Part shown: piece by piece, positions 58,911-59,530 of the stretch
How positions within the stretch are numbered: position 1 is the first letter of the stretch
Layout of the letters: each line of letters begins with the position of its first letter
Source of the DNA: Flavobacteriales bacterium
GTDB lineage: Bacteria; Bacteroidota; Bacteroidia; Flavobacteriales_E; Vicingaceae
NCBI GenBank assembly: GCA_015075325.1
Contig: JABTUP010000001.1
Span: 1 to 64,000 of the forward strand
DNA length: 64,000 bases
Reading direction: 5' to 3'
Notes under the pieces: model-generated
Databases searched by the model: none
Told to the model about the DNA's origin: nothing
Seen by the model: only the letters and a program-made list of their open reading frames with translations
Position numbers and translations under genes: made by a program

Positions 58911-58966
58911 TTGGGGAATTAACTCATTTGTGCCTAGCGTTCCGCAATGCTGCGGGAAGGTGGTTA
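58911..58966 (+). other. tRNA-Ala 5'-half-like fragment with a substitute hairpin
   Basis: TTGGGGAATTAACTCATTTG copies the acceptor 5' strand and the start of the D-arm of the adjacent tRNA-Ala. The anticodon arm is replaced by TTCCGCA-ATGC-TGCGGGAA, followed by GGTGGT as in the tRNA variable region, and the T-arm is absent. It is therefore a fragment of a tRNA-like copy, upstream of the intact tRNA gene. Confidence 0.7.
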
Positions 58967-59003
58967 AATTTAATCCTCGTTCTTTTGTTATTGTATATTT
59001 ATT

Positions 59004-59077
59004 GGGGAATTAGCTCATTTGGCTAGAGCGCTTGCCTGGCAGGCAAGAGGTGGTCGGTTCGATTCCGATATTCTCCA
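59004..59077 (+). tRNA. tRNA-Ala (anticodon GGC)
   Basis: The 5' acceptor strand GGGGAAT pairs with ATTCTCC (one G-T pair), followed by the discriminator A. The D-arm is AGCTCATTTGGCTAGAGC, the anticodon loop CTGGCAG gives anticodon GGC in a CTTGC/GCAAG stem, and the T-arm is TCGGTTCGATTCCGA. CCA is not encoded beyond the A. It is complete, unlike the two fragments on either side. Confidence 0.95.
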
Positions 59078-59084
59078 CAACTAG

Positions 59085-59115
59085 AAAGCATCCGTCTGCT
59101 GACAGATGCTTTTTG
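59085..59115 (+). terminator. Terminator of tRNA-Ala
   Basis: GCATCCGTC (59088-59096) pairs with GACAGATGC (59101-59109) with one mismatch around TGCT, followed by TTTTT. A variant copy lies at 59429-59459. Confidence 0.85.
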
Positions 59116-59129
59116 CTTTTGTTAAAATT

Positions 59130-59369
59130 ATGTACTTTGTCTATATCCTATATTCTTCCAATATCGACAAATATTATATTGGTCAAACTGAGAATATAAA
59201 ACGGAGACTAGCTGAACATAATTCTAAAAGAAATCTTGGTGCTTCCGATTGGCAGATAAAGTATGTTGAAAGTTTTGAAAACAGAAGTGATGCTGTTAAA
59301 AGAGAGACTGAAATAAAAGCTAAGAAAAGAAGAACTTACCTTGAATGGTTAATTTCCAACAATGTATAG
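59130..59369 (+). CDS. GIY-YIG nuclease family protein in tRNA-Ala duplication
   Basis: A 79-residue single-domain protein. MYFVYILYSS and YYIGQTENIKRRLAEHN carry the GIY-YIG core (the Y-V-Y and Y-I-G pairs and the catalytic Arg). A lysine/arginine-rich segment (VKRETEIKAKKRRTYLEW) includes the conserved Glu. This UvrC N-terminal-like family is often near tRNA genes in Bacteroidota. I start at ATG 59130 because the frame upstream runs through the terminator hairpin. Downstream, the stop abuts a copy of the tRNA 3' half. Confidence 0.88.
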   Translation: MYFVYILYSSNIDKYYIGQTENIKRRLAEHNSKRNLGASDWQIKYVESFENRSDAVKRETEIKAKKRRTYLEWLISNNV

Positions 59370-59459
59370 AGCGTCCCGCAGCATTGCGGGAAGGTGGTCG
59401 GTTCGATTCCGATATTCTCCACAACTAGAAAGCATTCGTTATTTTACGGATGCTTTTTT
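59370..59459 (+). other. tRNA-Ala 3'-half-like fragment plus duplicated terminator
   Basis: 44 bp (59392-59435) are identical to 59048-59091, covering the tRNA-Ala variable region, T-arm, acceptor 3' strand and the start of the terminator. The bases before them are GAGCG and a hairpin TCCCGCA-GCAT-TGCGGGA in place of the anticodon arm. A complete hairpin terminator follows (GCATTCGT/ACGGATGC, 59432-59453). The 5' acceptor strand is missing, so it cannot fold as a tRNA. Confidence 0.75.
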
Positions 59460-59461
59460 GT

Positions 59462-59530
59462 TTTCACCCCTCTTTATCTCCCCTCTAGAGGGGAGAATTT
59501 CCTCCCTTGAGGGAGGATAAAGGTGGATGA
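59462..59530. repeat. Palindromic repeat related to the 1.43-1.55 kb element
   Basis: Palindromic blocks CTCCCCTCTAGAGGGGAG and CCTCCCTTGAGGGAGG follow CACCCCTCTT. The same CCTCCC/GGGAGG palindrome and CACCC/GGGTGA ends occur in the core of the element at 1431-1546. It lies between the tRNA fragment and the next gene. Confidence 0.6.

Follow-up and report, generated by a model that had tools for sequence, protein, structure and literature searches.

Why does a gene for a 79-residue nuclease sit between pieces of a tRNA gene, and how has an intact tRNA been kept beside it? The question is raised by a locus towards the end of the window, by which we mean the whole 64,000-nucleotide stretch of Flavobacteriales DNA that was analysed. 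There, a promoter region, a left tRNA-Ala piece, an intact tRNA-Ala(GGC), a terminator, a GIY-YIG open reading frame, a right tRNA-Ala piece and a second terminator follow one another, with a unit of ~380 bp. The tRNA pieces, the intact tRNA, the nuclease gene and both terminators had been described in an earlier note on this DNA and were confirmed by sequence, ARAGORN, Rfam and PF01541, as follows.

58913-58979, plus strand: left tRNA-Ala piece, with a 5′ part, a hairpin replacing the anticodon arm and a decayed 3′ part (sequence; local alignment to the intact tRNA from tRNA position 1, locus L087)
58940-58958, no strand assigned: left palindrome TTCCGCAATGCTGCGGGAA, the hairpin TTCCGCA-ATGC-TGCGGGAA within the left piece (sequence)
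59004-59078, plus strand: intact tRNA-Ala(GGC) (ARAGORN; Rfam tRNA, 62 bits)
59079-59119, plus strand: proximal terminator-like hairpin, 3′ of the intact tRNA (sequence)
59130-59369, plus strand: GIY-YIG nuclease gene, 79 aa (PF01541, E 6.4e-15)
59367-59422, plus strand: right tRNA-Ala piece, with the D-arm remnant TAGAGCG, a hairpin and a 3′ half (sequence)
59374-59391, no strand assigned: right palindrome TCCCGCAGCATTGCGGGA, the hairpin TCCCGCA-GCAT-TGCGGGA within the right piece (sequence)
59423-59462, plus strand: distal terminator-like hairpin, 3′ of the displaced tRNA 3′ half (sequence)

In both flanking pieces, a hairpin stands in place of the anticodon arm, and the two hairpins are approximately reverse complements of one another, which explains the “inverted loop” that had been remarked upon previously. 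The left piece, formerly read as a 5′ tRNA half, is tRNA-like from 58913 and does bear the hairpin; it is, however, more than a half, continuing past the hairpin into AGGTGG before it decays. The longest exact duplication, whose 44 bp were also correctly identified before, comprises 59048-59091 and 59392-59435 and extends 13 bp beyond the tRNA end. Furthermore, the stop codon of the nuclease gene (TAG) lies inside tRNA-derived sequence, namely the D-arm remnant TAGAGCG. An Rfam search of the window returned tRNAs only and no intron match. Just 3′ of the displaced tRNA half, at 59466-59530, a C-rich palindrome pair (TCTCCCCTCTAGAGGGGAGA, TCCTCCCTTGAGGGAGGA) lies inside a larger inverted repeat and resembles an interspersed repeat.

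Among 60 related genomes, 38 contain relatives of the window protein, several of them in regular tandem. A set of 189 distinct loci was assembled, the contigs being scanned with this single protein as query. Two further elements with the same flanking pieces lie in the window's own genome (G000), at tRNA-Asn(GTT) (L042, contig C14) and tRNA-Pro(GGG) (L043, contig C61). Since the arrangement recurs at other tRNA isotypes, a chance origin of the window locus is excluded. In 114 of the 189 loci (114 of 175 in the strand-adjacency count), an intact tRNA of the same orientation precedes the nuclease gene within 400 bp; in the opposite orientation, no tRNA was seen upstream and a single one downstream of the gene; for a random gene position, the chance of such adjacency is ~0.1%, a rough estimate good to an order of magnitude. 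Occupied tRNAs carry 21 isotype/anticodon labels, most frequently Met, Asn, Ala and Val. Upon alignment of each intact tRNA to its own flanks, downstream pieces with a tRNA 3′ end were recovered in 87 of these 114 loci and upstream pieces with a 5′ end in 42, while reversed-tRNA controls gave 0 on either side. The junction falls mostly in the anticodon arm, and the other tRNA half persists as a fragment in which a palindrome replaces the anticodon arm or a loop.

A mirror layout, in which a tRNA 5′ piece with palindrome is followed by the nuclease gene and then by the intact tRNA, was observed in 25 loci (upstream 5′ piece in 19, control 0), and in seven mirror loci the nuclease reading frame ends on a TAG that belongs to the tRNA itself (tRNA positions 8-10). 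Fragments occur without an intact tRNA in nine loci. Overall, 148 of the 189 loci show a tRNA link, 31 with lower profile scores do not, and 10 more lie at an edge. That one intact tRNA is kept in most loci is consistent with an element that supplies its own tRNA half, namely the 3′ half together with a terminator where the layout is the common one and the 5′ half where it is mirrored. The same layouts also appear in two contigs binned as candidate phyla (L253, Dojkabacteria, tRNA-Val; L277, Staskawiczbacteria, tRNA-Gln), by transfer or mis-binning. As an annotation hazard, ARAGORN apparently calls palindrome-bearing pieces at L314, L315 and L244 odd tRNAs (Lys-TTT, Phe-AAA).

The comparison with gene-free relatives that the earlier note had proposed did reveal empty sites. 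In G001, of the same genus as the window, an identical tRNA-Ala and the same downstream gene (which we take from its sequence to be saccharopine-dehydrogenase-like) are present with no nuclease gene, the synteny extending over the right side only. At a tRNA-Val(TAC) locus beside an ABC transporter gene, six genomes of one genus are occupied and 12 clearly empty (leaving out three genomes ending at a contig edge and one with unread bases). On a tree built from the adjacent gene, this distribution requires no fewer than three switches of occupancy. The nuclease gene is thus found inside a putative target gene of which empty alleles exist at the same locus, as for a homing element. Upstream of the intact tRNA, the sequence agrees with that of empty relatives (L332 compared to L318). 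On the downstream side, each of the three successive tRNA 3′ ends of L335 is followed by a different terminator, and the outermost of these is of the kind seen in element-free relatives. L329 has two different terminators after its two tRNA 3′ ends, the inner type of which is also present in one empty relative (L339). Such differing terminators fit an inserted tRNA 3′ half, terminator and nuclease gene displacing the resident half, not a plain recent duplication. Together with the displaced 3′ pieces, they give these loci the duplicated gene end and displaced resident end of mobile ORFs. We also considered a recoded rescue tRNA that resists cleavage; this was rejected for Ala and Val, as the intact tRNA is identical between occupied and empty genomes, and the same comparison revealed no feature of the tRNA sequence explaining why it would stay uncut.

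On the nuclease tree, members appear to group by tRNA isotype much more closely than by host family, which is also somewhat clustered. Isotype required 33 changes on the tree compared to 74.3 after shuffling, with none of 200 shuffles as low; on the same rows, isotype required 29 changes (66.5 shuffled) and host family 60 (68.6 shuffled), for short proteins with many weak forks. This clustering may reflect a homology requirement as much as nuclease specificity. Tandem arrays of 2-10 copies were found in 31 loci, with units of mostly ~340-460 bp that are often >95% identical, including arrays of 10 and 8 nuclease genes in nearly identical units adjoining tRNA-Met (L034, L035). Repeated self-cutting with sister repair would generate such arrays, and unequal crossing-over would do so too. 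A strict age order within arrays was dropped: the outermost copy is 3′-truncated in nine arrays, yet inner copies are broken in several others. In the tRNA-Pro(TGG) array L037, a transposase-like insertion interrupts one nuclease copy.

The protein itself belongs to the GIY-YIG superfamily by its PF01541 match, its catalytic residues and its fold. The catalytic residues Y5, Y16, G18, R26, H30 and E59 of the window nuclease are invariant in 18 relatives, and across these 18 diverse members eight alignment columns, catalytic residues among them, do not vary. An AlphaFold model gave a confident minimal GIY-YIG fold (pLDDT 92.7), whose best PDB matches were UPF0213, Slx1 and the catalytic domain of I-TevI, none below E 1e-3. 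No target-binding domain was recognisable, the nuclease consisting of the catalytic domain only; by analogy with Slx1, target choice could possibly proceed via recognition of DNA structure. dN/dS lay at 0.04-0.24 in nearly all nuclease pairs, one close pair with few changes reaching 0.52. A plasmid or phage origin was rejected, as neither the plasmid nor the phage collection (the latter of 50,697 records) contained a match to the window protein at E 1e-5.

The palindromes require separate consideration. As the search beside other GIY-YIG genes and tRNAs suggested in the earlier note established, nearly every flanking tRNA piece carries one, in an isotype-specific place that is mostly the anticodon arm and sometimes the D or T loop; the class is, however, also distributed genome-wide. 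TCCCG...CGGGA palindromes were matched in all 60 genomes, in most above a reversed-pattern control and including genomes without a close nuclease relative; G032 contains 81 (control 0), and G002, with no close GIY-YIG relative, contains 15 (control 2). TCCCGAAAGCTTTCGGGA is repeated at several sites of the window's genome (for example L295, L310, L312 and L313), at the tips of other inverted repeats and in group II intron-like sequence, and this palindrome seems to insert into hairpin loops. Because the class is present in all 60 genomes and also in other repeats, it is not element-specific, and we rejected the hairpin as a hallmark of the element. The earlier proposal that hairpins form the element ends, against which its author had named widespread occurrence without GIY-YIG genes as evidence, is accordingly unsupported in that form. 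Near a contig end (G058, C22, 35-318), palindromes occur every ~90 bp, perhaps an array of left-type tRNA pieces.

Taken together, we regard a minimal homing-type mobile element, aimed at tRNA genes and equipped with a substitute tRNA half, as the probable explanation of the arrangement. The earlier note's interpretation was partly supported and largely correct in outline: support was obtained for an insertion in the anticodon-arm region with a functional tRNA kept, for a minimal homing-type element, for empty sites at the same locus in relatives and for repeated independent occurrence. Three other explanations were weighed. The nuclease gene might be locally inherited, reflecting an old linkage to tRNA genes with fragments arising from ordinary tandem duplication and decay and no nuclease-driven movement. 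The unrecoded intact tRNA agrees with this, linkage alone would yield isotype clustering, and unequal crossing-over could give near-identical tandem copies; the patchy occupancy of a single locus among genomes of the same genus, two different terminators after two tRNA 3′ ends (L329, L335), mirror layouts, and conserved catalytic residues with low dN/dS are nevertheless not expected from it, and we hold it to be unlikely.

More improbable still is a function useful to the host, for instance in structure-specific repair as by Slx1 or YhbQ-like nucleases, in defence, or in cleaving anticodons, with the tRNA copies as decoys. UPF0213 and Slx1 as closest structures, together with purifying selection, would suit such a role, to which patchy presence, arrays of whole units and broken distal copies run counter; the flanking pieces would also make poor tRNA-like decoys because one acceptor strand is mostly missing. 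Ranked lowest is the idea that the nuclease serves the palindromes, mobilising or processing short TCCCG...CGGGA sequences into hairpin loops with tRNA loci as one landing place, much as RAYT transposases act on REP sequences. It draws on the palindromes that nearly all tRNA pieces bear in a loop or arm and on the same class in hairpin tips of other genome repeats, but palindrome number does not track the nuclease: genomes with and without the nuclease gene were matched alike, and the count for G002 exceeds its control.

For the favoured homing-type element, the following sequence of events can be proposed. Briefly, the nuclease would cut a tRNA gene that lacks the element, within or close to its anticodon arm, and the break would be repaired from an occupied copy, where the 5′ half of the tRNA and its displaced 3′ half would provide the homology arms. 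The tRNA half, terminator and nuclease gene would thereby be copied in and the tRNA rebuilt. The palindrome presumably breaks the target site of the displaced copy, which would spare that copy from cleavage, and occasional cutting of the intact tRNA followed by sister repair would add units and extend tandem arrays.

Several known systems share parts of this behaviour. Integrative elements with tRNA attachment sites bring along a substitute end that makes the tRNA whole again; the element described here differs by having no integrase, a size of ~380 bp and a junction that mostly falls within the anticodon arm. Group I introns of tRNA anticodon loops likewise insert near the anticodon, with homing driven by a nuclease, whereas in the present element a second, intact copy of the tRNA is retained and no splicing is involved, and Rfam found no intron core RNA in the window. 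The closest architecture, gene-end replacement, is that of mobile ORFs in fungal mitochondria (Allomyces atp6; Glomus atp6, atp9, cox2 and nad3), in which a free-standing homing nuclease gene enters a host gene with its own copy of the 3′ end and pushes the resident 3′ end downstream, the Glomus atp9 nuclease being a GIY-YIG enzyme (PMC3630166). Those ORFs reside in mitochondrial protein genes and mostly encode LAGLIDADG nucleases, whereas the tRNA element occupies bacterial chromosomal tRNA genes with a nuclease of ~80 aa; it also differs in having a palindrome within the displaced piece, in its mirrored 5′ versions and in forming tandem arrays. The nearest nuclease precedent is SegB of phages T4 and T6, a GIY-YIG homing endonuclease located among tRNA genes that cuts in the tRNA region (PMC2988022, PMC13096335) and was shown to drive tandem amplification of a tRNA + segB segment by recombination (PMC13096335). 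Unlike the tRNA element, SegB is a phage protein encoded between tRNA genes and is not described as splitting and rebuilding one; a SegB-type close relation to phage proteins was not seen in the phage records at E 1e-5. Among open-licence papers, we found none that describes this arrangement from Bacteroidota, and a term search of a GIY-YIG superfamily survey returned no mention of it (PMC1564403).

As the arrangement recurs in Bacteroidota at over 20 kinds of tRNA gene, it appears to represent a previously undescribed family of minimal selfish elements, which invade tRNA genes but do not destroy them. More broadly, and with somewhat less assurance than for the homing-type element itself, we favour a phylum-wide family of ~0.4-kb selfish elements specialised on tRNA genes. 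Each would combine one minimal nuclease with half a tRNA as replacement, would exist as a 3′ or a 5′ version within an isotype-bound lineage, would break an essential gene and supply the cure in one step, and could grow into tandem arrays. If this is true, bacteria carry natural break-and-rescue drives against essential RNA genes, and a principle known from fungal mitochondria extends to bacterial chromosomes. Such elements would also account for several peculiarities of Bacteroidota genomes, namely tRNA pseudogenes, unusual tRNA calls and broken contigs, and the paired occupied and empty alleles within one genus make the hypothesis directly testable.
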